DNA from: an uncultured Kiloniellaceae bacterium
GTDB taxonomy: Bacteria > Pseudomonadota > Alphaproteobacteria > Kiloniellales > Kiloniellaceae
DNA: 64,000 nucleotides
NCBI GenBank assembly: GCA_947493695.1
Contig: CANLSF010000002.1
Span: 868,001-932,000, forward strand
Direction of reading: 5' to 3'
In this document: positions 1,365 through 23,613 of the stretch, in pieces
How positions within the stretch are numbered: the first letter of the stretch is position 1
Layout: every line of letters starts with the position of its first letter
The notes under the pieces: model-generated
The model's database searches: none
Told to the model about the DNA's origin: nothing
Seen by the model: the letters and a program-made list of their open reading frames with translations, nothing else
Program-made: the position numbers and the translations under genes

Positions 1365-1391
1365 CAGGTTGGATGGGAATCACATCGAATC

Positions 1392-2267: not shown

Positions 2268-3138
2268 GGTACGACTTTCTTGAATGGGCGATAGCCTCGG
2301 CGCAGCAAAATGCGAACAAGGTCATGATGATCATGATCAGGCCGCTCGCAAAAAGCGAAGCACGGTGGAGATCCACGGCGTAGGCGACTTCCAGCGCTAT
2401 GTTTGCCGACAAGGTGCGAACAGGTGCAAACACGCTGTCGGGAAACTGGACGACGTTGCCAGCGACCATCATAACAGCCATCGTTTCACCAGCAGCGCGG
2501 GCGACCCCCAGAATAGTTCCGGCGCAGATACCGGAGACAGCAGAGGGCATAACAACCTTCCAGACCGCCTGCTCCCTCGAGAGCCCCAAAGCGCGCGCGG
2601 CCAGGTAATGGTGGTGAGGCACATCGGCGAGCGCAGTCGCGGAGATCAACTCAATCGTCGGCAGTATCATAAGCGCCAGAACCAAAGAAGCAGCCAGAAG
2701 GCTCGCCCCAGGCGGCTCAATACGTGAGATTAACGGCACCAGCACGGTCAGGCCCCAGAGTCCGAATACGACAGACGGGATCCCGGCCAAAAGCTCGATA
2801 AGTCGCCGGTAAATCCCACCCAGAGCTCTCGGTGCGTAGAACTGTCTGAAGACCGCCGATACCACCGCCAAAGGCGCGGCGATCACAATCGCCAACACGG
2901 TAACCAAAACTGTTCCCAAGAGCATCGGCGCGAGACCGAAGCTGTCACTCGAGGGATGCCAGCTTTCGTCACTCAGCATTCTCCAAAGACCGATATCGCG
3001 TATTGCGGGCAGGGATTCCAGCGTCACGACCGCGATGGCAAGTACGAGCACAGAAGCGGAAACCGCGGCGGCAGAACGGCTTGAAAACAAAAGTAATTTA
3101 TGCGCCAGCCAATCCTTACTCCGCGGGGGGTAATACAT
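2251..3138 (-). CDS. pstC: Phosphate ABC transporter permease (PstC)
   Basis: This second permease of the Pst complex is about 295 residues long. I chose ATG 3138 (MYYPPRSKDW) rather than the upstream ATG at 3186 because it leaves only a 23-base overlap with pstS. It has about six membrane segments. The coupling loop is near ARALGLSREQAVWKVVMPS, and the phosphate-permease signature GVARAAGETMAVMMVAG follows. It is encoded between pstS and pstA on the same transcript. Confidence 0.88.
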   Translation of the reverse strand: MYYPPRSKDWLAHKLLLFSSRSAAAVSASVLVLAIAVVTLESLPAIRDIGLWRMLSDESWHPSSDSFGLAPMLLGTVLVTVLAIVIAAPLAVVSAVFRQFYAPRALGGIYRRLIELLAGIPSVVFGLWGLTVLVPLISRIEPPGASLLAASLVLALMILPTIELISATALADVPHHHYLAARALGLSREQAVWKVVMPSAVSGICAGTILGVARAAGETMAVMMVAGNVVQFPDSVFAPVRTLSANIALEVAYAVDLHRASLFASGLIMIIMTLFAFCCAEAIAHSRKSYRVGRA

Positions 3139-3952
3139 AGAAAGCATCCAGGATATCCGCGACAGATGGCGAAGTGGCAAACGCAATAAACTCAGCCGTC
3201 AGCCCTTCGGGCATTCCAGCTGTTACGAAGTTGAGTTCGCGGATCATCGGCAGGTTCCCCTCAGCCAACGACTTGGCATTGGGTACGACACCGTCGACGG
3301 CCACCATCCGTAAGGGCAGTCCGTTTTCGATATGGTAGGTGGAGGCACCGACAGAAACATACGCAATCGCAAGAGGGTTGGTTGAAACGGTTTTGATAGC
3401 CTGTTCGTTGTCGCCAATGATGATGTCGGACTTGATACCGTTGGATTTCAGCTGTGTGTATTTGAGGAAAACTTCGAGTGTCGACCGCCCATCGGCTTTA
3501 TTGACGACCACGATCGGCCCTTTGAAATCCTCGATTTGAGACCAGTCATCGATCTTGTCGGTGTAAATGTCGATAATCTGAGATCGATCGAGTCCGAGAA
3601 TGGGATTCTTTGCATGCGTGATCATGGTGACGGCGTCGAGCGCAATCGTATGCCCGGTCAGATCACCTTCTGACGGTTCCAGGCGACGAGACACCATACC
3701 GATATCGGCCAGGCCTTTGCGCGCATCGTGAATACCGCGTGCACTGCCACCGGTTTGAATTTCAATCTGAACGTCCGGCCGTGTTGCCTCGAAGCGTTTC
3801 GCGATTTCAAGAGCGATCGGCGCGACCGAGCTCGACCCGGTCACCATCAGTCTCTCTGTCGCTGAAACTCCGGTGGACAACACACTCAAAACGAATACGG
3901 CGAGAAAACCCATCACTGAAAAACGGCCAAACGACCGTGATCCTGCGTTCAT
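3116..3952 (-). CDS. pstS: Phosphate (PstS-like) substrate-binding protein
   Basis: This periplasmic binding protein is about 278 residues long and begins at ATG 3952, five bases after a strong AGGAGG. The N-terminus carries a Sec signal peptide (hydrophobic stretch FSVMGFLAVFVLSVL, cleavage near VSA). The mature part starts with a VTGSSSVAPIALEIAK segment, matching the anion-binding P-loop of the PBP-like family that includes PstS, and continues with TGGSARGIHDARKG. It is first in the pstSCAB operon. Which oxyanion it prefers cannot be read from the sequence; phosphate is the default, and tight discrimination against arsenate is plausible given the neighbours. Confidence 0.85.
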   Translation of the reverse strand: MNAGSRSFGRFSVMGFLAVFVLSVLSTGVSATERLMVTGSSSVAPIALEIAKRFEATRPDVQIEIQTGGSARGIHDARKGLADIGMVSRRLEPSEGDLTGHTIALDAVTMITHAKNPILGLDRSQIIDIYTDKIDDWSQIEDFKGPIVVVNKADGRSTLEVFLKYTQLKSNGIKSDIIIGDNEQAIKTVSTNPLAIAYVSVGASTYHIENGLPLRMVAVDGVVPNAKSLAEGNLPMIRELNFVTAGMPEGLTAEFIAFATSPSVADILDAFYVLPPAE

Positions 3953-4075
3953 TTTTGCCTCCTGCTTTTTGGCTATGCTCGCGTAAGACCCGAACACTAT
4001 CCACTGGTCAGGTTGTTAGGGCTCCGGGTTCAGGAGGATCGGCGCTCTCATGAAATTGAGATGACAGATGGGGTA

Positions 4076-5272: not shown

Positions 5273-6556
5273 TCAGATTGCCCCATCCAGGCTGACAAAC
5301 TCGACGCCTTCACGGACTGCAACGTCCTTATCGTCTGCTGCGCCCTTCGCAATTACCTCAACGATAGAGCGCACCTGGTGATAGCCGGTAAACGCCAGAA
5401 ACGTCGCCGCCCGTCCGTAGCTCTTGGCGCCCACTATGTAGAAATCAGGTTCCATGGGATGACGCAGTTCAGACCAGCCGTGCTGCGGGACTGAATAGCA
5501 ACTGTGTTCGTTAGGGTCGATCAAAGGCGCAAGATCCACAACACACTCCAACGCCGGATCCAGTCTCAAGCGCAGTTCGCGTGTCAGATCGAGATCAGGT
5601 CGCTGACCTGTGTTGCACAGGATACAATCCAAGTCATCGAGGCGTCTCTGCTCCCCGGCATGCGTTCCGATGACTGAGAGTTCCGCATCGTTCCCATCGA
5701 GTTCTTGGACCTGAAACTCCGTCAAAAGCTCGAAGGCTCCAGCACGCTTGTGCGCTGTGAGTTTAGTCCCAAGAGCAAGCCGCGCCGGCACGTCATCAGC
5801 CTCGTCCTTGACGAGGTGTTCCAGGTCGGGTCTCCGGATCAACCAGAGTATGCTGGTCTCAGGCACCTCTTGCTTCAGATGAACCAGATTCAAAACAGTG
5901 TTCGCCGCCGAGTAACCGCTTCCGACAATCGCAACGTTTTTTCCGGCGTAATCCGCTCGGTCGCGGCCATAGACATCGGGAATACCATAGCGAACCCGAG
6001 ATGCGCTGCGCTCCTCACCGTGAGCCGACATACCGTCGCTGCCAAGAGGGTTCTGTTGCGACCAGGTCCCCGAAGCATCGATCACCGCGTCGACCAGACA
6101 ACGCTCGATTTCGCCGTCACGTCGAAACGCAACGGTGAAGCGCTGTGACTCACGACGCGCCGTTCGCGTCTTGTCGAGACCGGCTCGCGCAACTCCAATC
6201 ACGCGGCAATTCAGCTGAAGCGCTTTGGAAACCGCAGGCAATTCTGACAAGGGTTCAAGATAATCGCTTATCAGCTCCCCCCCTGTCGGCAGGGCATCAT
6301 CCTGCGGTGCCTTCCATCCGGTCGCTTCCAGCAACTGTCGGGCAACCGGGTCGATAAGCGTGTCCCATGTAGAGAACATCCGGATGTGGGACCAGTCTCT
6401 GACATGCTCCGCGATATCAGTTCCCTGCTCAAAAACGATTGGAATCTGACCCGCCGCCAAGAGATTGGCAGCGGCGGACAGGCCCACCGGCCCTGCACCA
6501 ATAACCGCAACCGTGACCGGTCGTTTTTTATGGCCTGATAGCATCTGCCTGCTCAC
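5273..6556 (-). CDS. FAD/NAD(P)-binding flavoprotein (monooxygenase or oxidoreductase; ArsO-like candidate)
   Basis: This is a two-dinucleotide-domain flavoprotein of about 427 residues. The first Rossmann motif is VIGAGPVGLSAA, which binds FAD, and the second is AIVGSGYSAANT, which binds NAD(P)H. GTG 6556 is the likely start because AGGAGA lies five bases upstream; an in-frame ATG at 6577 lacks a ribosome-binding site. The C-terminal motif GAKSYGRAATFL recalls flavoproteins found in arsenic operons (ArsO-type, function unproven). It precedes the MFS gene with a 3-base gap and diverges from the LysR gene, a common regulator-target arrangement. The reaction is unknown. Confidence 0.7.
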   Translation of the reverse strand: MSRQMLSGHKKRPVTVAVIGAGPVGLSAAANLLAAGQIPIVFEQGTDIAEHVRDWSHIRMFSTWDTLIDPVARQLLEATGWKAPQDDALPTGGELISDYLEPLSELPAVSKALQLNCRVIGVARAGLDKTRTARRESQRFTVAFRRDGEIERCLVDAVIDASGTWSQQNPLGSDGMSAHGEERSASRVRYGIPDVYGRDRADYAGKNVAIVGSGYSAANTVLNLVHLKQEVPETSILWLIRRPDLEHLVKDEADDVPARLALGTKLTAHKRAGAFELLTEFQVQELDGNDAELSVIGTHAGEQRRLDDLDCILCNTGQRPDLDLTRELRLRLDPALECVVDLAPLIDPNEHSCYSVPQHGWSELRHPMEPDFYIVGAKSYGRAATFLAFTGYHQVRSIVEVIAKGAADDKDVAVREGVEFVSLDGAI

Positions 6557-6742
6557 GAGTGTCTCCTGTCGAAGCATTGTGAGATGTGCATTTTTTCTGA
6601 ACTATTGATCAGCATCAAAATCGACGCGAAGGTAGCACGGTACAAAAAATGCATATTTTACAACATACATGGACAAACTTACGGGCGAGCACTTCCCTAT
6701 CAAAGTCATTTGTTTTTCTTCATGATTAAGCTAAACTTAACT

Positions 6743-8185: not shown

Positions 8186-8914
8186 ATGAATTGGTCACAC
8201 ACTCCTTATCTGTTCGATGCATGCGAAACATGTGACATCGGGTCGGTCGTCCAACAAACAGAAAAGATCCTCGATAACGGTAAAGTTGCCCTTTTCGTTT
8301 ACATCGGCTTGCGAATGCCGGGACACAAAGTCTCGGAAGGTGACTTACCAATCATCCTGACAAACATTTCTCCGGCTTGGGCAAGCGCTTATCGGCGCGA
8401 AGACCAACATCTGAGAGATCCAGCGATGAAACGCGCCTGCGCAAGTAGGGTCCCGCTTCTGATGACAACCCGCGAGCTCGAATATGTCTCGCAATCGCTC
8501 AGCGCAATCGACACGGCGATGACGCGACCGACGAGAGGCATTGTCGTTCCCATCCACGGACCTGATGGTGAGCTCGCGCTCTTTAACGTATTGGGGAACT
8601 GGCGCGGCTGTGCCCCAATGCCCGGCATCATGGATGTCAGTGATATCCATATGCTGGCTCTAAACGTGCACGCCACCATCACGGAATGCACTCTCAAGAA
8701 ACGCAGTGGCGAAAGTATATCCCTCACAATACGGGAGAAGGAATGCTTACTGTTAACCGCTCGGGGCAAGACAGCCTGGGAGATTTCCAAGATTATGGCG
8801 CGCTCCCGCGGAACGGTGAATTTTCACCTACAGAACGCTATGCGCAAGCTGGATGCAGTTAACAAAACGCAGGCTGCTGCAAAGGCAACAGAACTAGGTC
8901 TTTTGACAGCATAG
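8186..8914 (+). CDS. LuxR-family regulator with autoinducer-binding domain (LuxR solo)
   Basis: This 242-residue protein has an N-terminal ligand-binding domain and a C-terminal LuxR helix-turn-helix (LTIREKECLLLTARGKTAWE, then SRGTVNFHLQNAMRKL). The ligand domain keeps residues typical of acyl-homoserine-lactone receptors: W in PAWAS, Y in AYRRED, the D-P of LRDPAM and G in GIVVPIHG. ATG 8186 has GGGAAG upstream. No luxI synthase gene lies in the window, so it is a solo. It sits 105 bases upstream of the AroA-like operon in the same orientation and may control it, linking the cluster to cell density or another small signal. This is inference from position. Confidence 0.8.
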   Translation: MNWSHTPYLFDACETCDIGSVVQQTEKILDNGKVALFVYIGLRMPGHKVSEGDLPIILTNISPAWASAYRREDQHLRDPAMKRACASRVPLLMTTRELEYVSQSLSAIDTAMTRPTRGIVVPIHGPDGELALFNVLGNWRGCAPMPGIMDVSDIHMLALNVHATITECTLKKRSGESISLTIREKECLLLTARGKTAWEISKIMARSRGTVNFHLQNAMRKLDAVNKTQAAAKATELGLLTA

Positions 8915-9019
8915 CGTCAATTTCGTTCCCCGGTACTGGCAACTTGTCCAGTTGCTGCTCTTTCGTCCTTTCGACTTCAATAGCCCTGCCCATCAAAGTC
9001 GGCATAAAGGACGGACGCC

Positions 9020-10321
9020 ATGTATCGGAGCACCCGACTCGTCAATCGAAATCCCAATCCCTTTGTCGCACAGCTTCCAGGATCGAAGTCTTACACGAAC
9101 CGAGCCCTGGTCTTGGCCGCACAGAGAATTGGTGCAACGAAAATCACCAACGCACTTCACGCCGATGACACCCTGCTGCTGGCAGAATGCCTGAACCAGT
9201 TTTCCGGCCTGAGCGTCGAAAAAACCGATGACGGTTTCCAGGTTGTTCGCAGCGCAAAACAGCTTGGCGCGCCCGAAAAAGAACTCTTTATCGGAGGTGC
9301 CGGAACGCCCGCACGCCTCTTGATCGCATTCGCAACAGCGGCTGAAGGCGCGACCGCCATCACCGGCAATGACCGGCTCTGCGAACGACCCATGAACGAC
9401 ATCATCGATAGTTTGCGGGATGCAGGCTACCACATCGAAGAATTGGGAACGCCCGGCTGTTTACCGCTGCGCGTCCATAGCGGCAGCCCCGCACATCGGC
9501 GATGGAAGATCAGCGGTAGCGTGTCGTCGCAGTTTACCACATCACTCCTGATTCACGCGGCACAGGTGCCAGGAGATCCGGTCGAGATTGAAGTCCGGGA
9601 TCATCTTGTCTCGAAGCCCTACGTACGCATGACGTTACGGATGATGAAAGACTGTGGGATCAAGGTGGAGACAATTGATCCAGCGCGCTTCCGGGTTTTC
9701 CCGACTCAACCAGACGTCGACAGGATCCCGATTGAAGCCGATGCGTCCGCCATGTCTTATATGCTTGGCGCAGCGGCCATCACACGAAGCCGTGTTGTCG
9801 TTCCAAGCATTGACCTCTCCTCTGCACAGGGTGATGTGGGGTTTGCGAAGGTCCTCCAGAAGATGGGTTGTGATCTTGATGGCCGAGACGGGAAAATTCT
9901 TCTCACCGGCGCACCGCTGCGCGGCCTGACCGTCGATATGGAAGACATGCCGGACACAGTATTGACGCTTGCCGCGGTCGCACCCTTTGCTCAGGGCCCC
10001 ACGAAAATTACCAACATTGCCAATTTGCGCGTCAAGGAATGCGACCGTATCCACGCCGCCTCAGAAGGCCTGGGACGCCTCGGTGTAAAAAGCGGTGAAG
10101 GACCGGACTATCTGATAGTCACCCCGGGTGAGTCTCTCAACGCAGGTCGGATCAGTACCTATGACGATCACCGGGTTGCCATGGCGTTTTCACTCGCCGG
10201 CTTGATGCAGGAGGGGATCGAAATAGAAGACCCCGACTGTGTCGGCAAATCCTTCCCGAACTACTGGGCTGAGCTTTCACGTTTCCAGGAACACCACTCG
10301 GCATTGGAAGTTGCGTTATGA
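9020..10321 (+). CDS. EPSP-synthase homologue (AroA-like); candidate arsenoenolpyruvate synthase
   Basis: This 433-residue protein is a full-length homologue of 3-phosphoshikimate 1-carboxyvinyltransferase, which transfers enolpyruvyl from PEP. Conserved residues include the PGSKSYTNR loop (K23, S24, R28), AGTPAR, CERP, GSVSSQF, NLRVKECDR and DDHRVAMAF; the usual T in VKETDR is C here. It starts an operon of overlapping genes with no other shikimate gene nearby, so it is probably not the housekeeping aroA. In streptomycete arseno-organic clusters an AroA paralogue beside a phosphoglycerate-mutase paralogue was proposed to make arsenoenolpyruvate. The same pairing here, upstream of arsenite oxidase, supports that role. 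A plain second EPSP synthase remains possible. Confidence 0.82.
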   Translation: MYRSTRLVNRNPNPFVAQLPGSKSYTNRALVLAAQRIGATKITNALHADDTLLLAECLNQFSGLSVEKTDDGFQVVRSAKQLGAPEKELFIGGAGTPARLLIAFATAAEGATAITGNDRLCERPMNDIIDSLRDAGYHIEELGTPGCLPLRVHSGSPAHRRWKISGSVSSQFTTSLLIHAAQVPGDPVEIEVRDHLVSKPYVRMTLRMMKDCGIKVETIDPARFRVFPTQPDVDRIPIEADASAMSYMLGAAAITRSRVVVPSIDLSSAQGDVGFAKVLQKMGCDLDGRDGKILLTGAPLRGLTVDMEDMPDTVLTLAAVAPFAQGPTKITNIANLRVKECDRIHAASEGLGRLGVKSGEGPDYLIVTPGESLNAGRISTYDDHRVAMAFSLAGLMQEGIEIEDPDCVGKSFPNYWAELSRFQEHHSALEVAL

Positions 10322-11118
10322 CCTATGCAGATGCTTCGCAAAGCACACTCTACACCGAAGAATATTCGCAGGATTTCGCTGACTCCTTTGACGGCATTGC
10401 GGGCTGGGAAGCCCGTTCGGCTGCAGAGGGAGATCATTTGACATCTCTATTGAGACAGCACGGTGCGCAGCGTGTCCTCGACGCTGCCTGTGGTACCGGC
10501 TTCCACCTGGCGCTTCTTGCTGATCGGGGTTTCGAGTTACTCGGAAGCGACGGTGCCCCGGCAATGATCGAAAGAGCACGCGTCAATCTGGCAGCGCGAA
10601 ACCTGCAGATGCCCCTTGAAGTGTGTGACTGGCGAACCTTATCGCAGAAGATGGGTTCCGGTTTCGATGCCGTTCTTTGCCTCGGCGACTCCTTCGCACA
10701 TCTTCTAAGCAGCGACATGCAGTTAACGGTGTTGCGGCAGTTTGCTGCCGTCCTCAAACCCGGCGGTATCGTCATTATCGATCATCGCAACTACGACCGG
10801 GTCGTCGAAGCCGGCACCTACATTGAAAAACCGAGCGGGTACTGTTGTTGCGGCGATGCCCCACCGCGAACCCTGACAATCGACGAGGATGGTCTGGTAA
10901 ACTGCCATTACAGATCTTCGGACGGTAAGGAGTTTTCCTTCAGAACCTTTCCTGTTCGCCGCAGCGAATTTGCAGCCAATCTGCGTCAGGCAGGCTTTGC
11001 GCAAATAAAAACTCTCATCGAAGGTCGTGAGAGCGCTAGCGCAGCTGCCATAGATGAATCGGATTTTCTGATTGAAGTGGCCGTCAAAGTACATCCTGCA
11101 CCTGAGACCATGGCGTGA
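10318..11118 (+). CDS. Class I SAM methyltransferase, glycine N-methyltransferase-like
   Basis: This 266-residue methyltransferase begins inside the stop of the AroA-like gene (ATGA overlap). Motif I is VLDAACGTG at residues 53-61. CLGDSFAHL and the DHRNYD segment at 155-160 match glycine/sarcosine N-methyltransferases. A CCC triplet at 176-178 is unusual and could bind thiophilic As(III); ArsM enzymes use several cysteines, but overall this is not an ArsM. In this operon it may methylate the arsenical or an amino-acid moiety. Alternatively it makes sarcosine, which the downstream sarcosine oxidase could use, though that operon is beyond the island. Confidence 0.8.
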   Translation: MTYADASQSTLYTEEYSQDFADSFDGIAGWEARSAAEGDHLTSLLRQHGAQRVLDAACGTGFHLALLADRGFELLGSDGAPAMIERARVNLAARNLQMPLEVCDWRTLSQKMGSGFDAVLCLGDSFAHLLSSDMQLTVLRQFAAVLKPGGIVIIDHRNYDRVVEAGTYIEKPSGYCCCGDAPPRTLTIDEDGLVNCHYRSSDGKEFSFRTFPVRRSEFAANLRQAGFAQIKTLIEGRESASAAAIDESDFLIEVAVKVHPAPETMA

Positions 11119-12593
11119 GCGACGTGAAAACAGCACTCATTATCTTAGATGGCATGGGCCTCTCCGAGGATCCGGTGGGGAATGCGGTAACCCCCGAAAC
11201 CATGCCGTTCCTCTTTTCGCAGATGGATCTACATGGCCATGCCCGCCTCGCCGCATCGGGCGAAGCTGTGGGTCTGCGTGAAGATGTCGTTGGCAACTCC
11301 GAAGTCGGCCACCTCACGATAGGTGCGGGGCGCATTGTTCCTTCGACGCTCAACCGGATGGATCAGGCCTATACGGACGGGAGCTGGCAAAGACACCCGC
11401 TCTGGAGCGAGATTGTGTCCCGGCAACCTTGTCACATTGTCGGTCTGCTCTCCGACGCCGGCGTCCACGGACACCTCGATACTCTCTGGAGAAGCGCTGA
11501 ACTTGCGGTTGCCAATGGTTGCACCGACGTTATCGTCCATCCTGTTTTGGACGGAGTCGACTCGCCCGCCGGCAGCGCATCCGAACTTCTTCAGAGACTT
11601 CGGCAAAAGCTCTCTGATTTACCGCACCTACGCCTCGGCATGGTTATGGGGCGGAAGTGTTTTTGCGACCGAAGCGGATCTCCAGAACCGGCCAGGCAGT
11701 TCGTCGAGGCACTGAGCAACATTCCAAACCTGCCCAGCTTTGATGAAAGTGCGTTGGCAAAAATCGAAAACGAACGTGATTTCGAACCGCACGGCAACCC
11801 GGGAGTTACGGGAGCCCGGGCACGAGAAACTATCGTTCTGACCAGCCACCGCGCGGACCGGGCCGTCCAGGTCGCGCGTGTCATGCGGGAAAATTTCCGT
11901 GTTTTCGCTCCAATCGCGCTGCCGGACGCCGTTCCTGCCGAACAGACCTTCTTCCCGTCAACACCTCTGCAGGACGGGTTGGCCGTAGAGCTTGCAGCCG
12001 CGGGCCTGGAGACCACCCGCATTGCTGAAGACTGCAAATTTCCGCATGTGACTTCCTTCTTCAACGGATTGAATGAAACGATCACGTCGCACAGCTTTCC
12101 GATTCCAACGCCGGCAGAGGACGACTTACCGAACCAACCCGAGATGTCTGCGGACCAGGTGGCGGATAAGGTCATCGACGAAATCGAGACAGGAAGCAGT
12201 CATCTTCTGGTCGTCAACATCGCCAACCTGGACCAAATAGGTCATCTCGGCCGGTTGGATCTCGCAAAAATCGCGGCTGCCAAGGTCGATGCGGTGGCGC
12301 AGCGTATTTGTGAAGCAGCCGCACGTCACTCCTGGAACACCCTTTTCGTTGCGGATCACGGGAACGCCGATCGCGTCGAGACAGAGACCGGAAAAGCCTT
12401 TGGCTCGCACACTGCGCGACCAGTCCCGTTTATTGTTGTTCCAAGCCCAGGACACCACGTGACCTGGCGAGTGCACGAAGGAAGTCTCGCCAATGTTGCC
12501 TCGTCCGTGTTGGCGTCAATGATGAAGCCTTGTCCTGCCTCCATGCATCCCCCGCTGCTGGACTTTCAGCCGCGGCAAGTAGAGGCGCCGTAG
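11115..12593 (+). CDS. Phosphoglycerate mutase (2,3-BPG-independent) homologue; candidate arsenopyruvate mutase
   Basis: This 492-residue member of the alkaline-phosphatase superfamily starts with GTG overlapping the methyltransferase stop (GTGA). The metal and nucleophile residues of GpmI are kept: D12, S62 in GNSEVGH, D373 and H377 in NLDQIGH, D414-H415 and H432. Substrate-loop residues differ: the canonical GRDTPP reads GVDSPA at 147-152 (the arginine is lost) and GGVHSH reads AGVHGH. That pattern of intact chemistry with a changed pocket fits recruitment to a new substrate. In streptomycetes such a paralogue was proposed to rearrange arsenoenolpyruvate into a C-As bonded product. A normal glycolytic role is less likely in this operon. 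Confidence 0.82.
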   Translation: MSDVKTALIILDGMGLSEDPVGNAVTPETMPFLFSQMDLHGHARLAASGEAVGLREDVVGNSEVGHLTIGAGRIVPSTLNRMDQAYTDGSWQRHPLWSEIVSRQPCHIVGLLSDAGVHGHLDTLWRSAELAVANGCTDVIVHPVLDGVDSPAGSASELLQRLRQKLSDLPHLRLGMVMGRKCFCDRSGSPEPARQFVEALSNIPNLPSFDESALAKIENERDFEPHGNPGVTGARARETIVLTSHRADRAVQVARVMRENFRVFAPIALPDAVPAEQTFFPSTPLQDGLAVELAAAGLETTRIAEDCKFPHVTSFFNGLNETITSHSFPIPTPAEDDLPNQPEMSADQVADKVIDEIETGSSHLLVVNIANLDQIGHLGRLDLAKIAAAKVDAVAQRICEAAARHSWNTLFVADHGNADRVETETGKAFGSHTARPVPFIVVPSPGHHVTWRVHEGSLANVASSVLASMMKPCPASMHPPLLDFQPRQVEAP

Positions 12594-12595
12594 CT

Positions 12596-13483
12596 ATGTC
12601 TCTGCACTTGACTGTTGATTTGTTATCGCCCGCAGAATGCCCCGAAAATATAGGACTTCTTGTTCCCGTCCCTCCAGAAACCGGACTTCAGTCTCTGGAG
12701 AAGGTCACCATTGCGGGGGCTGAGGTTATTGATCGCCATCATGCGGTTAGCGGCCATCAGGAAGCTCTGCTTGTCTTGCCGCGGCGCGGCCAGCCGATAG
12801 TGATCAACTATGCGCTAAAACTAGGCGGCAAGAGTCCTGCAGGGATGTTCAAGGGACAGAAATCGTATACCGCATTGCCAGATGCCGTTTCTGAACGGCT
12901 GCAGAGACTATTGAACAACACGACGTCCATCAGCGAGCGCGAGCGTCTTGTCATCACATTCGCGGCAGACAATTTTTCCTACGGCCCCCGGGCAGAAATT
13001 CCTGTCGCCGCCCAAGTTCTATGCGGACTTGCATCAGGCAATTGCGTGGATATCAACGGTTTTCTGATTTCCGCAATGCTGCAAAACAACATACCCGCCT
13101 GCTACTTTGCGGGTTACTATTTTCCCGACAGCGATCGCAGCTCGAGCGCGGACGGCATGCACTGCTGGATCTCGACGTATTTGGACGGCGCGCAGCGCCA
13201 TTGGGATCTCCCTTATTCACTGAAACTCGGCAAACCTACGTTGAGTCCCGGTCTCGATCACATCGGCGGACACCACGTCGCCATGTCGACCGGCATGGAC
13301 CTTACATTCGAGGTGGGCGGCAGCGCGTTTCAAACCCACTACCTGGCGCAGCCTTTGTGGTTACTCCCCGCCGGTCGGGTGCAGACAGCCAGCGTCGAAT
13401 GCCACGCACAGCCTTTTTCCACCGTTCGAAACGACACCATCCCAAAAAACGAGGCACTCTCGCAAATTCAAAACAACCTTTGA
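12596..13483 (+). CDS. Transglutaminase-like superfamily protein
   Basis: This 295-residue protein starts at ATG 12596, two bases after the mutase stop. Its centre has the transglutaminase/cysteine-protease-like triad: C150 in SGNCVDING, H189 in DGMHCWIS and D204 in HWDLPY. The N-terminal 90 residues form a beta-rich segment seen in many bacterial transglutaminase-like proteins. The family includes amidases, peptidases and enzymes forming amide bonds; the substrate cannot be named. Its place inside the operon suggests processing or conjugation of the cluster's product, for example hydrolysis or formation of an amide. No signal peptide is seen, so it is probably cytoplasmic. Confidence 0.72.
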   Translation: MSLHLTVDLLSPAECPENIGLLVPVPPETGLQSLEKVTIAGAEVIDRHHAVSGHQEALLVLPRRGQPIVINYALKLGGKSPAGMFKGQKSYTALPDAVSERLQRLLNNTTSISERERLVITFAADNFSYGPRAEIPVAAQVLCGLASGNCVDINGFLISAMLQNNIPACYFAGYYFPDSDRSSSADGMHCWISTYLDGAQRHWDLPYSLKLGKPTLSPGLDHIGGHHVAMSTGMDLTFEVGGSAFQTHYLAQPLWLLPAGRVQTASVECHAQPFSTVRNDTIPKNEALSQIQNNL

Positions 13484-13486
13484 GAA

Positions 13487-13927
13487 ATGGCAAAAGCGCA
13501 GAAAAACGAGACGACGGCAGACAGCCCCCCCTCTTCCGGGTCAGACAACCTGGCGGAGGATTGGGTGGTGCGCGCTTTCAGCGCGCTTGCCCAGGAAACA
13601 CGCCTTGCAATTCTGCGATTGTTGCTACGCCATGCACCCGGCGAACTCTCCGCTGGCGACGTCGCGCAGGCTGTTCAAATACCCCCCTCAACACTCTCAT
13701 TTCATCTCTCACGGCTTGAGCGGGCGGAACTCGTCCAATCGTGCCGTCGGCACAGAAACATTTATTACCAGGTCAACCTGATCGCGACCCGTGATCTTGC
13801 CGGCTTTCTGTTGGAGGAGTGCTGCAGGGAAACGAAGTCCAAGGCTCAGTTGGCGGCTTTTCTGTCAGGGGTCGATCAGGAGCAAGTATGGAAAAAGTGC
13901 GCCTCCACCAATACGGACCTGAATTGA
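13487..13927 (+). CDS. arsR: ArsR/SmtB-family transcriptional repressor
   Basis: This 146-residue winged helix-turn-helix protein has FSALAQETRLAILRLLLRH followed by the recognition region IPPSTLSFHLSRLERAELV. It lacks the classical ELCVCD metal site (the position reads ELSAGDV). It has other cysteines: SCRRHR in the wing, and a pair in EECCRE near residue 120 that could bind As(III). It starts three bases after the transglutaminase-like gene and 84 bases before aioB, so it is co-transcribed with the biosynthetic genes and is the probable arsenic sensor of the cluster. Ligand identity is inferred from neighbours. Confidence 0.85.
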   Translation: MAKAQKNETTADSPPSSGSDNLAEDWVVRAFSALAQETRLAILRLLLRHAPGELSAGDVAQAVQIPPSTLSFHLSRLERAELVQSCRRHRNIYYQVNLIATRDLAGFLLEECCRETKSKAQLAAFLSGVDQEQVWKKCASTNTDLN

Positions 13928-14010
13928 CACCCCCTTGAGCAACGCTTCACCCCCGTAAACTGTCAACTGTCTGGAACGCAAATTTCTTTTAAAGAACGAG
14001 GACACTGCGA

Positions 14011-14529
14011 ATGCTGAGAGATAAACAGTCGCTCAATCAAACCCGTCGCTCCTTTTTCAAGACCTTTGCAACTGCCGGAATTGCCACTGCAACAGCACCC
14101 TACCAGACCGCAAAAGCAGGTTTCCGCGCACGCGTTGACTACCCCTCGACACGCCTGGCCAACCTAAGAGATCTCAGGATAAACCAGCCCATCGATATCA
14201 ATTATCCAGATGCAGAATCTCCAGGTGTTCTTGTCAGGCTGGGCAGGAAGCTCTCAAACGGTGTAGGGCCCGATCAAGACATCGTTGCCTATTCAACTCT
14301 GTGTCCTCACGAAGGATTTCGACTGATTTACGACGCAACTGACAAGACTTTGAACTGCCCGGGACACTATTCACGCTTTGATACCGAACTTTCTGGTCAG
14401 CAGATCTTCGGAATGTGTAACCAGAGCCTGCCGCAGTTCAGTCTTTACCTCGATGACAAGGGCGACATCTTTGCCGATGGCGCTGACGAGCTGATCTATG
14501 GACGCACCAGTAACGTACTTGAGGGATAG
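14011..14529 (+). CDS. aioB: Arsenite oxidase small subunit, Rieske protein (AioB)
   Basis: This 172-residue Rieske 2Fe-2S protein is the small subunit of arsenite oxidase. The two cluster motifs are CPHEGF and, 16 residues on, CPGHYS. The C-terminal segment DELIYGRTSNVL closely matches known AioB. The N-terminus has a twin-arginine signal (TRRSFFKTFATAGIATA), so the protein is exported folded to the periplasm, carrying the AioA partner. In the complex it passes electrons from the molybdenum subunit to a cytochrome or quinone. It precedes aioA by 11 bases. Confidence 0.93.
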   Translation: MLRDKQSLNQTRRSFFKTFATAGIATATAPYQTAKAGFRARVDYPSTRLANLRDLRINQPIDINYPDAESPGVLVRLGRKLSNGVGPDQDIVAYSTLCPHEGFRLIYDATDKTLNCPGHYSRFDTELSGQQIFGMCNQSLPQFSLYLDDKGDIFADGADELIYGRTSNVLEG

Positions 14530-14540
14530 CGGAGTCGGCC

Positions 14541-17006
14541 ATGACCTACAAACGCGGAATAGACCAGCTCCCAATCCCACCGAAAGACGCCAGGGTGCAG
14601 AACGTAACTTGTGACTTTTGCATCGTGGGATGCGGCTACAAAGCCTACAGCTGGGATCTCAGTAAACAAGGCGGCACGGCGCCCGGCGAGAATGCCTTTG
14701 GAGTTGATCTCTCGAAACAGCAAGAAACCGAGTCTCCCACCTGGTATCAGCCTTCGATGTACAACATGGTTCAACAAGACGGTCGTCCGGTTCACCTGAT
14801 CGTTAAACCAGATCAGGATTGTGTTGTGAATACCGGGCTCAACTCGGTTCGTGGTGGTCGCTTGGCAGAAACGCGCTATTCAGAGCAGGCTGGCACCATG
14901 GTCGACCGCCTAACGCATCCACTCATCTGGCGCTATTCGCAACATATGCCCAGCTCTTGGGACGACGCCCTTTCACTGGTGGCGGATGTGACACGCCGTG
15001 TCATCGAGGAATGGGGAGAGGACGGCATCATCGTCTCCGCGTTCGATCATGGCGGTGCCGCTGGCGGTTACGAGAACACCTGGGGCACCGGAAAGCTCTA
15101 TTTCGAGAGCATGAAAATCAAGAATATCCGGATTCATAACCGCCCTGCCTATAACTCAGAAGTTCACGCAACCCGCGACATGGGGATGGGTGAGCTCAAC
15201 AATTCATATAAAGACGCCGAGCTCGCCGATACCATATTTTGCGTCGGCGCAAATCCTCTCGAGAATCAAACCAACTATTTCCTGGCACATTGGGTCCCCA
15301 ATCTACGCGGTACCACGCTTGTTGAAAAAAAGCGCCGGTTTCCCGCCGAGGCACACGCGCCGGCTAAAGTGATCATCGTCGATCCCCGGCGGACCGTGAG
15401 CGTGAACGCCTGCGAATACGAAGCCGGCAAGGAAAATGTTTTACACCTTGCGATTAAACCGGGCACCGATCTGGTGCTCATGAACGCTCTATTGACCGAA
15501 GTTGTCGCGCAGGGCTGGCACGCCCGCGATTTCATTGCTCAAAGCACCAGCGGCTTTGACACAGCCATGCAGGCCAATCGCACATCCGTCAAGGACGCCG
15601 CGGAGATCACCGGCCTCGCCCCTGCCGATATCCAAAAGGCTGCGAAATGGATCGCTGAACCAAAGGCTGCAAACCAACCGCGCCGAACAATGATGTGTTA
15701 CGAGAAGGGTTTGATCTGGGGCAACGACAACTATCGAACAAATGCTGCACTCGCAAATCTGTGCTTCGCGACGCAAAACGTCGGGCGTGAAGGTACCGGC
15801 TGTGTCCGGCTCGGCGGACATCAGGAAGGTTATGTCCGCCCGCCCGGCGACCACGTTGGCCGACCGGCCAGTTATGTCGATCAGCTTCTTATCAAGGGGG
15901 AAGGCCGAATCCATCACATCTGGGCGACCGATCACTTCAAATCGACGCTGAACGCCGAAGAATTCCGCCGCGTGTACCGTCGTCGTACAAACCTGGTGAA
16001 AGAAGCTATGGACAGCGTGTCCTATGGCGACCACGCCGCTCAGGTTGACGCTGTGATGAACGCAATCCGGCAAGGCGGCCTCTTCTCAGTGGATGTTGAT
16101 ATCCTTCCCACCCCTATCGGCCAAGCCTGTCATGTCGTCCTTCCGGCCGCCACCGCGGGAGAAATGAACCTCACCTCCATGAACGGAGAGAGGCGTTTAC
16201 GCCTGTCGGAAAAATACATGGACCCCCCAGGTGAGGCGCTGCCGGATTGTTTGATTGCAGCGCGCCTGGCCAATCACTTGGAGCAATCCTTCCAAGGAGC
16301 CGGCGATACCGAAACCGCAAAGCGGTTCCAGGGATTTGATTGGCAGCGTGAGGAAGACGCCTTTATGGACGGTTATCACAAGCACGCCGATGGCGGGAAA
16401 TATGTGACCTACGAGCGTCTGCGGGCCATGGGAACAAATGGTGTTCAGGAACCCTGCATCGGCTTCGACGGAGCCAGGTTGATTGGAACAGAACGCCTCT
16501 ATACAGACGGCCGCTTCGGAACCGATGACACAAAGGCACACTTTAAGACTGCACAATGGCGCGGTTTGCAGGCCGCAGGACGAGAGGAACAGCGCAAGCA
16601 GTTCCGGTTCCTGATTAATAACGGCCGTAAGAATATGATCTGGCAGAGCGCTTTTTATGATCTGCGCGTACCGTTCGTGCGGGAGCGCTTTCCCCTGCCC
16701 CCGATCGAGATGAACCCTAACGATATGGCTCTAATCGGCGTCGCGCCCGGCGATCTGGTGGAAATCCACAACGATGTGGGATCGACCCAGGCCATGGTGT
16801 ACCCCATGGAAAACGCACGAGAGGGCGAGTGCTTTATGTTGTTCTCCTCACCCTTGGGGCAGGTCGGTAACATCGTCAGTGCACATACCAACGAATTGGT
16901 GCTGCCAAACTACAAGAATGTTTGGGCGGACATCCGCAGGATCGGCCGAGCGCCGCAAGCGGATGGGATCAGTTTTAAAGCGCTTGAGTACCCCACGGAA
17001 ATCTGA
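14541..17006 (+). CDS. aioA: Arsenite oxidase large molybdopterin subunit (AioA)
   Basis: This 821-residue DMSO-reductase-family enzyme oxidises arsenite to arsenate. The [3Fe-4S] motif is CDFCIVGC (C24, C27, C31), and a serine (S102) sits where other family members have the fourth cysteine, as in characterised AioA. All four arsenite-pocket residues are present: H199 and E207 in HNRPAYNSE, and R423 and H427 in RLGGHQEG. Stretches such as FDHGGA and ENTWGTGKL are near-identical to those of arsenite oxidases. No signal peptide is seen, as expected because AioB carries the Tat signal. The related iodate reductase IdrA is an alternative, but the pocket residues favour arsenite. Confidence 0.93.
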   Translation: MTYKRGIDQLPIPPKDARVQNVTCDFCIVGCGYKAYSWDLSKQGGTAPGENAFGVDLSKQQETESPTWYQPSMYNMVQQDGRPVHLIVKPDQDCVVNTGLNSVRGGRLAETRYSEQAGTMVDRLTHPLIWRYSQHMPSSWDDALSLVADVTRRVIEEWGEDGIIVSAFDHGGAAGGYENTWGTGKLYFESMKIKNIRIHNRPAYNSEVHATRDMGMGELNNSYKDAELADTIFCVGANPLENQTNYFLAHWVPNLRGTTLVEKKRRFPAEAHAPAKVIIVDPRRTVSVNACEYEAGKENVLHLAIKPGTDLVLMNALLTEVVAQGWHARDFIAQSTSGFDTAMQANRTSVKDAAEITGLAPADIQKAAKWIAEPKAANQPRRTMMCYEKGLIWGNDNYRTNAALANLCFATQNVGREGTGCVRLGGHQEGYVRPPGDHVGRPASYVDQLLIKGEGRIHHIWATDHFKSTLNAEEFRRVYRRRTNLVKEAMDSVSYGDHAAQVDAVMNAIRQGGLFSVDVDILPTPIGQACHVVLPAATAGEMNLTSMNGERRLRLSEKYMDPPGEALPDCLIAARLANHLEQSFQGAGDTETAKRFQGFDWQREEDAFMDGYHKHADGGKYVTYERLRAMGTNGVQEPCIGFDGARLIGTERLYTDGRFGTDDTKAHFKTAQWRGLQAAGREEQRKQFRFLINNGRKNMIWQSAFYDLRVPFVRERFPLPPIEMNPNDMALIGVAPGDLVEIHNDVGSTQAMVYPMENAREGECFMLFSSPLGQVGNIVSAHTNELVLPNYKNVWADIRRIGRAPQADGISFKALEYPTEI

Positions 17007-17118
17007 AGCGCCCAAGCGCCGATAACCTCATCAATACTGTCGTCGCGGGATACGCGGTGTTAAAAAGGAGCAAACCGTCCTTGGAGCTCCGGCATCCAGC
17101 TTGGAATAACGATCCAGT

Positions 17119-18318
17119 CTAGCTGGAAATTCCTGACGGCTTCTGTACGACGAGGTCATGGACATGAAAGCCGTTAAACCCGGTTGAAAGCGCTCCTGTA
17201 TAGGCCCCCATCGTCGCAACCTCAATCCAATCACCTTCGCCAATGTCATCGGGTAGCAGCCACTGGTCCGAAAGCTTATCCGTTACATCGCAAGTCGGTC
17301 CAAAGATCTCGAACGCGCTCGCCGCTCCGCTGAAGTCGCCGATCGGACGCACGGAAAACTGCTGGCCGCAACCGCAACAGCCCTTCGACAAGGCACCGTA
17401 GGTACCATCGTTGAGGTAAAGCCGTTGGTCACGCCGCTGCTGAACCTGGACGATGAGTTTCATCGCTTCGGCAATAAGGGCCCGCCCGGGTTCGATGAGG
17501 ATTTTTGCACCGGTTTCTCGACATAGCGCAGGCAAGCGATCCGAGAGCACTTTAAGATACGCGGAAATCGGCGGTACTGTTTGCTGCGGCCATGTTTCGA
17601 CGGGAAATCCGCCACCACAGTTTATCCAGCCTATGTCGACTGCGGTGCGCCCGGCAACTTCGGCAACCATCTCGAGCGCAGGAAGAAAGCGATCCGGATC
17701 GCGACACTGCGAGCCGACATGGAAAGACACACCGGTCTGGAAACCCTGACCTGCTGCCGTCTCCAGAAGCGTGCAAGCCTCCGCGACACCCACACCGAAT
17801 TTGTCATTGAAACCGCAAGCTCCTTCACTGGACGGTGGAGCCAAACGGACGTGCAGTGTCGAACCCTGCGAAGCAAGACCGGCGACTTTTTCCAGCTCAG
17901 CCATGCAATCAATGGTGAAATGCCGCACATCAAAGTCCCTGGCAGCACATTGGATCGCCTCGCGCGACTTAATCGGATGGTGGAAGTAGCTCTGCGACTC
18001 GGGATTTACCTCTGCAACGAGCTGGATTTCAGGCAAGGATGCTGTATCAAAGCTTCGAATACCTGCATCCGACAAAGCCTGAAGCACACGCGGATGTGGG
18101 TTGCATTTGACGGCATAGAGGAGTTCCGCGTCGATCCCATCATTGAAGAGACTGACGCAGGACTGCAACGTTTCCAGATTCAAGACAAAGCTTGGATGTG
18201 CCGGTTTCGAAGTACGAACCCACTCATCCAGTAAATCTTGACCCTGCTGCCTCTGAACGGCATCTCTGCGGATGTCGACGGCCCCTGGCAGCTTAGCCTC
18301 TTTCAGACGCTGGAGCAT
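17119..18318 (-). CDS. PLP-dependent decarboxylase, ornithine/diaminopimelate decarboxylase fold
   Basis: This 399-residue fold-type III PLP enzyme starts at ATG 18318 after GGGGAGG. The PLP lysine is K71 in YAVKCNPH. The glycine loop is GGGFP, the phosphate-binding segment is EPGR, and GPTCDVTD carries the active-site cysteine-aspartate of eukaryote-type ornithine decarboxylases. Its default function is ornithine to putrescine. Encoded just after a 2-oxoglutarate oxygenase and convergent with aioA, it may instead decarboxylate an amino acid in the cluster's pathway. Substrate assignment by sequence is uncertain in this family. Confidence 0.8.
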   Translation of the reverse strand: MLQRLKEAKLPGAVDIRRDAVQRQQGQDLLDEWVRTSKPAHPSFVLNLETLQSCVSLFNDGIDAELLYAVKCNPHPRVLQALSDAGIRSFDTASLPEIQLVAEVNPESQSYFHHPIKSREAIQCAARDFDVRHFTIDCMAELEKVAGLASQGSTLHVRLAPPSSEGACGFNDKFGVGVAEACTLLETAAGQGFQTGVSFHVGSQCRDPDRFLPALEMVAEVAGRTAVDIGWINCGGGFPVETWPQQTVPPISAYLKVLSDRLPALCRETGAKILIEPGRALIAEAMKLIVQVQQRRDQRLYLNDGTYGALSKGCCGCGQQFSVRPIGDFSGAASAFEIFGPTCDVTDKLSDQWLLPDDIGEGDWIEVATMGAYTGALSTGFNGFHVHDLVVQKPSGISS

Positions 18319-18381
18319 GACAACCTCCCCGATGCGGTGATAAGAACTCTCCAGGGTCTTCTCTCAAGGAGTAGTGACCTG

Positions 18382-19440
18382 TCACGGCAATTGGCACGCG
18401 GAGCGTATCTCGTCGTAACAGCACTTAAGGTACTCTCCGGCGGTCGCGCGGCCAGGATCCTCAGTCTTATCTCCCACCAGGCTCTTGAAGCCCTCGACCA
18501 TGACATCGAAACTGGGGTTAAAGAACAGAGCGACAGAATTCCTTGTTCTGTCACTGCTATTGATCACGCGATGGATCGTGCTGGAAAAGCGTCCGCCAGA
18601 CCACTGCTCCATCATGTCGCCAACATTGCACACGAGCGCCCCTTCTATCGGATCCGCCGCAATCCATTCGCCGTTCGCGTTGCGAACCGCAAGGCCACCG
18701 ACATCGTCCTGCGCCAGTATCGTCAGGCAACCGCAGTCCGCGTGTGCGCCTGCGCCAAAAGCACGTTCCGACTCGGCGCCACCAGGTTGACCGGGATAGC
18801 TCAAAAGCCGCATCCGCGACTCTGAATGCGCGATATCCTGATCGAACTCGGACTCGTCCAGGGAAAGGGAGAGCGCAAACGCACGGCAAAGATCTCGGCC
18901 CAGTGCGACACTATGCTCGTAGTACTGCTCCAGAGCAGACTGGAAATCGGGTATATCTGCAGGCCATTGATTGGCACCGCGCAATCCCGTCTTTTCCCTG
19001 TTTTCTGCCGCGGAAGTGCCCGCGAACCCGATGTCGAACCCTTCCTTGATGTCGCGTGTATGAAGAGGATCGACATTCTCTCCGCCGATTGGGAAGTAGC
19101 CTCTGTGATTGGTGGTGTTGCTGCTGGCAACTCTATCTTTAACCTCGTCAGGCAATTCGAAAAAATTCCGAGCCGCGCGAAAAACACCATCTAAAACCTC
19201 AGTCGGCAGCCCATGATTGGTCAGATAAAAGAAACCGACTTCGTTTAGCGAGCGACCGATCTCATCAGCGACGCGTTGTTTCTCCTCGGTGGTCCCATCT
19301 CGGAAGGTTCTGAAGTCAACCAGAGGTATCTGGCTGAAGGGGATGGACTTGGCGAGCGGAGGTGCGTAGTTCAACTCTGATGGAGGCGGCGTTTCAGGAT
19401 CAGCTACCGGAGTCACCGCGGACACTTTGACCTCAGTCAT
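18382..19440 (-). CDS. 2-oxoglutarate/Fe(II)-dependent oxygenase, isopenicillin N synthase family
   Basis: This 352-residue oxygenase starts at ATG 19440 with AGGA upstream. The N-terminal DIOX_N segment (IPLVDFRTF, then GFFYLTNHGL) precedes the double-stranded beta-helix. The iron ligands are H and D in GAHADCG and H in STIHRV, and RNSVALFF carries the R-x-S that binds 2-oxoglutarate. Family members hydroxylate, desaturate or cyclise small molecules. It forms an operon with the downstream decarboxylase (63-base gap). It could tailor the product of the adjacent cluster; no substrate can be deduced. Confidence 0.82.
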   Translation of the reverse strand: MTEVKVSAVTPVADPETPPPSELNYAPPLAKSIPFSQIPLVDFRTFRDGTTEEKQRVADEIGRSLNEVGFFYLTNHGLPTEVLDGVFRAARNFFELPDEVKDRVASSNTTNHRGYFPIGGENVDPLHTRDIKEGFDIGFAGTSAAENREKTGLRGANQWPADIPDFQSALEQYYEHSVALGRDLCRAFALSLSLDESEFDQDIAHSESRMRLLSYPGQPGGAESERAFGAGAHADCGCLTILAQDDVGGLAVRNANGEWIAADPIEGALVCNVGDMMEQWSGGRFSSTIHRVINSSDRTRNSVALFFNPSFDVMVEGFKSLVGDKTEDPGRATAGEYLKCCYDEIRSACQLP

Positions 19441-23536: not shown

Positions 23537-23546
23537 GAAACCCTCA

Positions 23547-23569
23547 GTACTGGACGACTTCTCCAGTAC
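23547..23569. promoter_or_regulatory. Operator-like palindrome between sspA and sspB
   Basis: GTACTGGA and TCCAGTAC form exact 8-bp arms around 7 bases, in the short gap between the divergent sspA and sspBCD starts. A TATAAC-like element follows at about 23574. It is suited to co-regulate both directions. Confidence 0.5.
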
Positions 23570-23613
23570 CTTATATAACTTTTTCCTGCTGGATGATATC
23601 CCCAGGAGTCGAA

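Follow-up and report, generated by a model that had tools for sequence, protein, structure and literature searches.

A 64,000-nucleotide stretch of the genome of an uncultured Kiloniellaceae bacterium (contig CANLSF010000002.1, positions 868,001 to 932,000; the window throughout) contains a locus that we read, with a probability of roughly 0.7, as a BsnM/BsnN-type pathway to organoarsenicals driven by arsenic, in which a methyltransferase with the fold of glycine sarcosine N-methyltransferase (GSMT) would act on a carboxylated trivalent arsenical. The core operon encodes an AroA-like enolpyruvyl transferase, this methyltransferase (P0003) and a GpmI-like homologue of cofactor-independent phosphoglycerate mutase (iPGM), followed on the same strand by genes for a transglutaminase-like protein, an ArsR-type repressor and the arsenite oxidase subunits AioB and AioA. 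While the BsnM/BsnN core itself is known, what would be new is a proposed core for carbon-arsenic (C-As) bond formation that is independent of S-adenosylmethionine (SAM), lies outside the actinomycetes and is accompanied by an unusual methyltransferase. The open reading frames (ORFs) named in the original prediction, which was made from the sequence of the window alone, are all present where it placed them, intact and in the families assigned, as judged by family-profile scores.

Both core enzymes group with arsenic-locus proteins

The source genome (6.46 Mb, 99.86% complete) holds one further aroA and one further gpmI on another contig, whose products are 32% and 38% identical to the AroA-like and GpmI-like proteins of the window, respectively. 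In a tree of 34 AroA rows, hand-picked from 62 with 28 omitted, the genome's own aroA among them, the window protein groups with those of G130 (a Rhodospirillales metagenome-assembled genome, MAG), two planctomycetes (L053 and L054) and L071 at 100/100 (bootstrap/Shimodaira-Hasegawa-like approximate likelihood ratio test, SH-aLRT), and this group joins eight actinomycete arsenic-locus proteins at 99/96. A quick tree of all 62 rows recovered the same arsenic group at SH-aLRT 90 and placed the genome's own aroA far off, beside that of G130. The unrooted GpmI tree of 57 rows is divided by a branch (support 99) with 38 housekeeping rows, the genome's own gpmI included, on one side and the window protein with 18 arsenic-locus rows on the other, where the window protein lies with G130 and the two planctomycetes (100). 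Neither protein branches with the organism's own aroA or gpmI product, in keeping with the original prediction, which took both for paralogues from an arsenic pathway.

Among 385 genomes of the class, 12 reached E 1e-60 in a search with the AroA-like protein and, besides the window's own, only G130 (58%) exceeded 41% identity; among 398 genomes of the phylum, 21 reached E 1e-80, all except the window's own at 39-44% and taken as housekeeping by identity alone. For GpmI, 143 genomes (the source genome, three more of its genus, 19 more of its family and others of the order and class) yielded a close relative only in G130, 52% identical over residues 4-228 and 41% over 235-482, with the other full-length matches at 38% or less. 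At least two aroA genes were found in 18 of the 19 genomes examined, the source genome included, the arsenic-type aroA being one of them. The AroA/mutase gene cluster thus appears accessory in its distribution.

Both proteins retain nearly all of the catalytic residues compared. At 22 positions that we take to form the active site of 5-enolpyruvylshikimate 3-phosphate (EPSP) synthase, the AroA-like protein matches the Escherichia coli enzyme at 20, with the shikimate-phosphate site intact, and the mutase keeps 14 of 15 presumed iPGM active-site positions, including Ser62 and the metal ligands. Superimposed on this conservation are residues characteristic of the arsenic-locus proteins. A proline at position 98, adjoining Gly96 and Thr97, occurs in all 19 arsenic-type AroA proteins and also in L071, which was counted among the 33 control rows for this comparison, a set that omits the genome's own protein along with further divergent ones. 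Val59, Phe337 and Gly460 (Bacillus-type numbering) are found in 19/19 arsenic-locus GpmI proteins and Ser328 in 18/19, whereas all four are absent or nearly so from housekeeping rows, which argues for a single origin of the arsenic-locus mutases. Profile scores do not separate the two kinds, since the window mutase fails the TIGR01307 cut-off and P0015, an actinomycete BsnN-type protein, passes it (395.5 bits).

Close AroA relatives are linked to gpmI and arsenic genes

One contig scan, which used two exact peptide patterns and three aligned AroA-like proteins, matched 281 stretches, of which 190 were confirmed and the best 80 kept; the counts below refer to these 80. These relatives were divided by identity to the window AroA into 37 close (about 43% or more) and 43 distant ones, a split that was not blind, and their flanks, of at most 10 kb, also differ, the median locus spanning 21209 bases in the close group and 16798 in the distant one. 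A gpmI-like neighbour accompanies 35 of the 37 close relatives and none of the 43 distant ones, an adjacency that exceeds chance; the exceptions are L071 and L118, the latter with a partial match. Likewise confined to the close group, with 0/43 distant loci in every case, are ArsR (29/37), Pst-type transport genes (25/37), phosphonopyruvate decarboxylase (Ppd; 21/37), ArsC (13/37), relatives of the window flavoprotein at 38% identity or more (11/37), ACR3 (10/37) and PhnW (3/37). Any marker among ArsR, ArsC, ACR3, Pst and the flavoprotein was present in 31/37 close and 0/43 distant loci. Because the core enzymes group with arsenic-locus proteins and their close relatives are linked to gpmI and arsenic markers, the core is best explained as a BsnM/BsnN-type arsonopyruvate pathway in an alphaproteobacterium, as far as sequence comparison can indicate.

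An independently annotated Streptomyces plasmid carries aroA and gpmI together with PstC, PstS, four ArsR-type regulators, ArsC, thioredoxin and its reductase, ACR3 and ArsO, and many of the actinomycete loci, which we term bsn-type by their gene content, include Pst-type genes, as does the neighbourhood of the window core. Not one of the other 37 close loci showed a GNMT-like, transglutaminase-like, AioA (identity threshold 38%) or AioB gene, which fits the suggestion that the combination of the core with AioBA and a transglutaminase-like protein is undescribed. Some Streptomyces loci have, beside the aroA/gpmI pair, a LuxR-type regulator different from that of the window. In the Streptomyces plasmid locus L048 (14729-15810), gpmI is followed by two genes, the first small and hypothetical, the second class-I glutamine-amidotransferase-like and with relatives in many actinomycete loci. 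Upstream of aroA, 15 of the 37 arsenic-type loci (L055-L082) contain a distant, partial molybdopterin-oxidoreductase ORF, 23-30% identical to AioA, so that the actinomycete loci may include an oxidoreductase of related type.

The methyltransferase has an apparently rebuilt substrate pocket

The best sequence matches of P0003 are the glycine sarcosine N-methyltransferase structures of Methanohalophilus, 5H02 and 5GWX, at E ~1e-45 (5GWX phmmer E 2.2e-45), and its AlphaFold2 model, with a mean predicted local distance difference test (pLDDT) score of 86, has 5HIJ as top Foldseek match. According to the part of the structural report available to us (PMC5146677), MpGSMT holds the substrate carboxylate with Arg167 and Tyr206 and the amine with Asn134, with His138 and Met218 as further contacts, and its methyl channel is lined by Tyr26, Tyr185 and Asn134. 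P0003 shares the fold and the Arg/Tyr carboxylate clamp of MpGSMT (PDB 5GWX/5HIJ), with Arg157, Tyr198, His128 and Tyr16 in place of Arg167, Tyr206, His138 and Tyr26. In contrast, Asn134 is changed to Asp124, Met218 to Thr210, Trp34 to Phe24 and the tyrosine pair holding Tyr185 to Cys176-Cys177, and the NF051855 score is below cut-off. The substrate region accordingly contains Cys176-Cys177-Cys178 and Asp124, while 10/10 aligned homologues (the 11 matches of the class search less the window's own) keep the asparagine, the tryptophan and both tyrosines. Neither this altered pocket nor the Pst operon figured in the original prediction.

The pocket of P0003 thus keeps its grip on a carboxylate but has thiols at the place of amine methylation, which points to trivalent arsenic as the methyl acceptor. 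With the clamp intact, the amine-binding asparagine replaced by aspartate and an invariant tyrosine pair replaced by Cys-Cys, the likeliest acceptor would be the thiol-held trivalent arsenic of an acid derived from arsonopyruvate. P0003 scores 21.1 and 20.7 bits against two selenoprotein ArsM models whose cut-offs are 510 and 575, and its plasmid relatives (85 records) reach 34% identity at best.

A proposed pathway and its alternatives

In the pathway that we propose, AioBA would oxidise arsenite outside the membrane and the resulting arsenate would probably be taken up by the Pst-type importer encoded nearby. If bisenarsan biosynthesis, known for its homologous enzymes, is a guide, the AroA paralogue would then transfer an enolpyruvyl group, probably from EPSP, to arsenate, giving arsenoenolpyruvate, and the iPGM paralogue, with its nucleophilic Ser62 and metal site, would produce 3-arsonopyruvate by shifting the arsenic off oxygen and onto carbon. 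Bisenarsan synthesis next requires the decarboxylase Ppd, of which this genome has none above cut-off; here, the GSMT-fold methyltransferase would instead take a carboxylated arsenical. The coupling of arsenate to enolpyruvate followed by rearrangement to a C-As bond had been predicted from the window, and the paralogy of AroA and mutase is consistent with it, whereas phosphoenolpyruvate (PEP), the donor assumed there, gives way to EPSP, which the published proposal for bisenarsan names in its place (PMC12159101, in the portion available to us); the intact EPSP-synthase site of the AroA-like protein fits that proposal. Finally, the ligand of ArsR might be arsenite or an organoarsenical that binds in two-coordinate fashion, since the repressor has a C-terminal cysteine pair with no third cysteine nearby, the next lying near the C terminus. 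SpArsR, a repressor of the ArsR fold without a third cysteine, responded to methylarsenite and not to arsenite (PMC11868830, as excerpted), and this likeness offers a hint, by analogy, of an organoarsenical-responsive ArsR.

Several observations weigh against this reading. In the GpmI tree the 15 actinomycete rows form a group (99) separate from the four proteobacterial and planctomycete rows, so that a single origin is not established by this unrooted tree; the window mutase sits on a long branch (1.28) and is 28-32% identical to actinomycete BsnN-type proteins, below many housekeeping iPGMs. Arg153, which the actinomycete group keeps, is replaced by Val in the window group, and a change of Arg191 to Lys is confined to the actinomycete group. 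The planctomycete L071 (AroA at 7623-8942) falls inside the arsenic-type AroA clade, yet this aroA is the only one found in its assembly, its fetched flanks hold no gpmI and the two neighbouring ORFs scanned showed nothing relevant. As to the methyltransferase, the equivalent of Cys178 is also Cys in 5/10 homologues, an alignment gap leaves either Cys176 or Cys177 as the replacement of Tyr185, and the cysteine stretch lies in a weak region of the model (mean pLDDT 57 for residues 171-180). The 18 further genomes that carry an AroA of this type gave no P0003-like match at E 1e-15, and the methyltransferase step therefore rests on one locus. Although no Ppd in the window genome passes the cut-off of 312.5 bits, a two-part Ppd relative on contig C5 (92.6 and 60.1 bits, the second stretch reading through one TGA) might carry out the decarboxylation. 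Nor is the lack of Ppd special to the window, as Ppd occurs in 18/33 actinomycete loci and is missing from the flanks of 15/33, some of which are cut by contig ends.

Four alternatives were weighed. The core might serve detoxification, locking arsenate in a stable organoarsenical that is finished by the methyltransferase and exported by the major facilitator superfamily (MFS) protein, with no signalling or antibiotic role. We consider this a real possibility, though not the one we favour: ArsR and AioBA stand in the operon, and the portion of the review available to us reports bisenarsan to be less toxic than arsenate (PMC12159101), but importing arsenate through a Pst-type operon would be odd for pure detoxification, and the MFS protein is nearest to organic-acid carriers, below their cut-offs, and is the best match in 0/37 arsenic-type loci. 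Somewhat unlikely, in our view, is that P0003 is an N-methyltransferase after all, its cysteines incidental, and that arsonopyruvate is transaminated to 3-arsonoalanine and then methylated on the amino group to give an arsenic-containing betaine-like amino acid. The carboxylate clamp and the Tyr26 equivalent are kept, Asp124 could still bind an amine, and the genome encodes PhnW far from the locus (478 bits, above cut-off). P0003 has, however, exchanged for cysteine two tyrosines that 10/10 homologues keep, with the equivalents of Asn134, Trp34 and Met218 changed as well, and none of the core genes was recognised as encoding an aminotransferase.

It is very unlikely that the AroA-like and GpmI-like proteins are ordinary duplicates in an arsenic island, serving shikimate or glycolytic flux as, for instance, arsenate-tolerant isoenzymes. 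Nearly all of the listed catalytic residues are kept in both, and the AroA-like protein passes the equivalog cut-off for EPSP synthase; yet the pair recurs as neighbours in three phyla, mostly with arsenic markers, Ppd and PhnW alongside it in G130 and L054 would make no sense for glycolysis, and Streptomyces no longer made an organoarsenical once the corresponding genes were disrupted (PMC12159101). Highly improbable, too, is a pathway that makes a phosphonate from phosphate rather than using arsenate. Pst, Ppd and PhnW are named as phosphate or phosphonate proteins, but ArsR, ArsC and ACR3 mark the close loci at the frequencies given above and none of the controls, the window carries AioBA, and the Streptomyces genes are tied to arsenic in the same review (PMC12159101, in part). 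Should the proposed organoarsenical pathway with As-methylation be correct, arsenite oxidation would be tied to organoarsenical synthesis on one strand, and a SAM-independent C-As route would extend from actinomycetes to Alphaproteobacteria and Planctomycetota.

Downstream branches and relation to known systems

The loci share one core with at least four variants, namely with Ppd (some actinomycetes), without Ppd (other actinomycetes), with Ppd and PhnW, and with the methyltransferase (the window). Among the actinomycete loci without Ppd, those of the L048 type contain genes for an aminotransferase and a GNAT protein. In G130 (contig C75), one strand carries, in order, Ppd, PstS, PstC, PstA, PstB, AroA-like, GpmI-like (frame broken), an MIP-like channel, PhnW and ArsR, with Ppd at 417.6 bits (cut-off 312.5) and PhnW at 492.4 bits (cut-off 400.8), both near AroA/GpmI. 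Of the two planctomycete MAGs, L054 has Ppd and PhnW above cut-off, whereas in L053 Ppd passes its cut-off and PhnW is represented by an ORF recognised by similarity. From their gene content, these three loci are predicted to make 2-aminoethylarsonate, the arsenic counterpart of 2-aminoethylphosphonate, which is made by PepM, Ppd and PhnW. The likeness lies in the O-to-C rearrangement of an enolpyruvyl oxyanion, decarboxylation and transamination, with Ppd and PhnW in the G130 and L054 loci; the differences are that AroA and iPGM replace PepM, that ArsR is present in G130, and that neither Ppd nor PhnW was found in the window's own locus. If these assignments hold, the core would feed further downstream branches, one through Ppd and PhnW to 2-aminoethylarsonate and one through a methyltransferase pocket rebuilt from amine to arsenic.

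The closest known system is the bsn cluster of Streptomyces lividans and S. coelicolor, which encodes BsnM (an EPSP-synthase homologue), BsnN (a phosphoglycerate-mutase homologue) and BsnJ (phosphonopyruvate decarboxylase) and which we compared by its description. The portion of the 2025 review available to us (PMC12159101) states that bisenarsan needs bsnM, bsnN and bsnJ, that bsnMN is widespread in actinobacteria, and describes the cluster without a SAM enzyme. The window resembles it in having neighbouring AroA and iPGM paralogues under arsenic regulation, with one gene, the methyltransferase, between them. It differs in its SAM methyltransferase inside the core operon, a genome lacking Ppd above cut-off, the same-strand AioBA and the alphaproteobacterial host. 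With regard to the polyketide synthase behind the acyl part of bisenarsan, the two largest window proteins, which were the ones searched, gave no Pfam match at 1e-8. The three arsinothricin genes arsQML of Burkholderia gladioli (PMC8552651) are likewise bacterial organoarsenical genes inside an arsenic operon, but there SAM-dependent enzymes, a radical SAM enzyme among them, form the C-As bonds (PMC12159101). We found no report of a BsnM/BsnN pair in Proteobacteria or Planctomycetota in the open-licence literature searched, where arsenoenolpyruvate appeared only in the 2025 review; among the papers listed for related terms, arsonopyruvate appeared only in that review and aminoethylarsonic in none.

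We further considered whether the product might be arsenobetaine or a close relative, in which arsonopyruvate would be converted to arsonoacetate, reduced and then As-methylated by the Cys-equipped GSMT-fold enzyme. Arsonoacetate would be the arsenic analogue of glycine, and its methylation would parallel that of glycine to glycine betaine by relatives of P0003; the operon would then provide a genetic candidate for a route from inorganic arsenic that makes the C-As bond first and adds the methyl groups after. At the locus, no genes are assigned to arsonoacetate formation and arsenic reduction. In the part of PMC9609160 available to us, arsenobetaine biosynthesis is called unknown except for the last steps from arsenocholine in a bacterium, and mushrooms made arsenobetaine best from trimethylarsine oxide. 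Because the mushroom and arsenocholine routes both differ from the proposed one, we regard this product as improbable. If the proposed pathway is right, the operon would be a short candidate for chemistry related to arsenobetaine biosynthesis.

Arsenite oxidase and flanking genes

The genes of the locus are tightly packed (Table 1). Four-base overlaps join the AroA-like gene to the methyltransferase gene and the latter to the GpmI-like gene. The mechanical ORF of the transglutaminase-like protein begins at 12530, but ATG 12596 is the likelier start, with which the gaps from the GpmI-like gene to it and from it to ArsR are two and three bases. AioB begins 83 bases downstream of the ArsR gene and AioA 11 bases further. 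No inverted repeats suitable as ArsR operators were found at 8880-9060 or 13880-14030. An interval of 8186-19440 had been drawn around the cluster; its core genes stand, but its left edge does not, as the Pst operon (558-3997) and the flavoprotein (5273-6577) have arsenic-locus relatives. The Pst-type operon is probably concerned with arsenate uptake.

Table 1. Coordinates and profile matches of genes at the arsenic locus and in its flanks
Feature	Position	Strand	Evidence
PstB-like ATPase of Pst-type ABC importer	558..1364	-	TIGR00972 312 bits, below cut-off 343.2; 65% to G130 PstB
PstA-like permease	1392..2267	-	TIGR00974 226 bits, above cut-off; 59% to G130 PstA
PstC-like permease	2251..3186	-	TIGR02138 231 bits, above cut-off; 56% to G130 PstC
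PstS-like substrate-binding protein	3116..3997	-	TIGR02136 137.6 bits, below cut-off 206.6; 47% to G130 PstS
MFS protein	4076-5269		Best scores on organic-acid carriers, below cut-offs
FAD/NAD(P)-binding oxidoreductase (flavoprotein)	5273..6577	-	PF07992 39.1 bits
LuxR	8186-8914
AroA-like (BsnM-type) enolpyruvyl transferase, proposed arsenoenolpyruvate synthase	9020..10321	+	PF00275 345.6 bits; above EPSP-synthase equivalog cut-off
GSMT/GNMT-fold SAM methyltransferase (P0003)	10318..11118	+	NF051855 183 bits, below cut-off 350
iPGM-like (BsnN-type) mutase, proposed arsenoenolpyruvate to 3-arsonopyruvate	11115..12593	+	TIGR01307 277 bits, below cut-off 330.65
Transglutaminase-like Cys protein	12596..13483	+	PF01841 28.7 bits
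ArsR/SmtB-type repressor	13487..13927	+	NF033788 69.4 bits, above cut-off
AioB, arsenite oxidase Rieske subunit, twin-arginine-like N terminus	14011..14529	+	TIGR02694 174 bits, above cut-off
AioA, arsenite oxidase molybdopterin subunit	14541..17006	+	TIGR02693 1195 bits, above cut-off
Pyridoxal phosphate (PLP) decarboxylase	17119-18318	-
2-Oxoglutarate (2OG) oxygenase	18382-19440	-

The presence of arsenite oxidase after the core on the same strand was borne out, as AioA and AioB both exceed their equivalog cut-offs and keep, by eye, what we take to be the 3Fe-4S and Rieske Cys/His motifs. In passing those cut-offs the window genes resemble known aioBA clusters; they differ in lying behind an organoarsenical core operon and ArsR, with no aioXSR-like gene among those neighbours that were scanned. 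AioA is identical at 538/821 residues to that of G194, which also holds the sole other homologue of the transglutaminase-like protein among the 385 class genomes (two including the source genome, E 1e-6), at 27% identity and with the Cys, His and Asp positions aligned. In G194 (L227, 7111-10584) the gene is convergent with those for AioA and AioB, which it adjoins and which both pass their cut-offs; a permease and presumably AioX-, AioS- and AioR-like proteins are encoded nearby. Since this sole other class homologue adjoins aioBA, the transglutaminase-like gene appears to go with arsenite oxidase. It was rejected as a core biosynthetic gene, with no counterpart in 37 loci (0/37), no plasmid match and this one distant homologue; its predicted structure has a pLDDT of 43, and in the literature searched no paper treated transglutaminase, arsenite oxidase and aioA together.

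Tailoring by the 2OG oxygenase and the PLP decarboxylase, also part of the original prediction, was not upheld: it rested on proximity, the genes are on the opposite strand, and neither reference protein was the best match in any of the 37 arsenic-type loci. The same count, 0/37, was obtained for the LuxR, LysR and MFS proteins of the window.

Elsewhere in the window, two huge same-strand ORFs (34479-42284 and 42311-47515; 2601 and 1734 aa) have no Pfam match at 1e-8. Nearer the arsenic locus, 22394-28672 holds SspA-, SspB-, SspC- and SspD-like genes of a DNA phosphorothioation defence system (PADLOC best scores 336, 316.5, 1082.8 and 444.8 bits), followed by genes whose products are of the GmrSD_N type (28754-29791) and SIR2-like (29779-30666).

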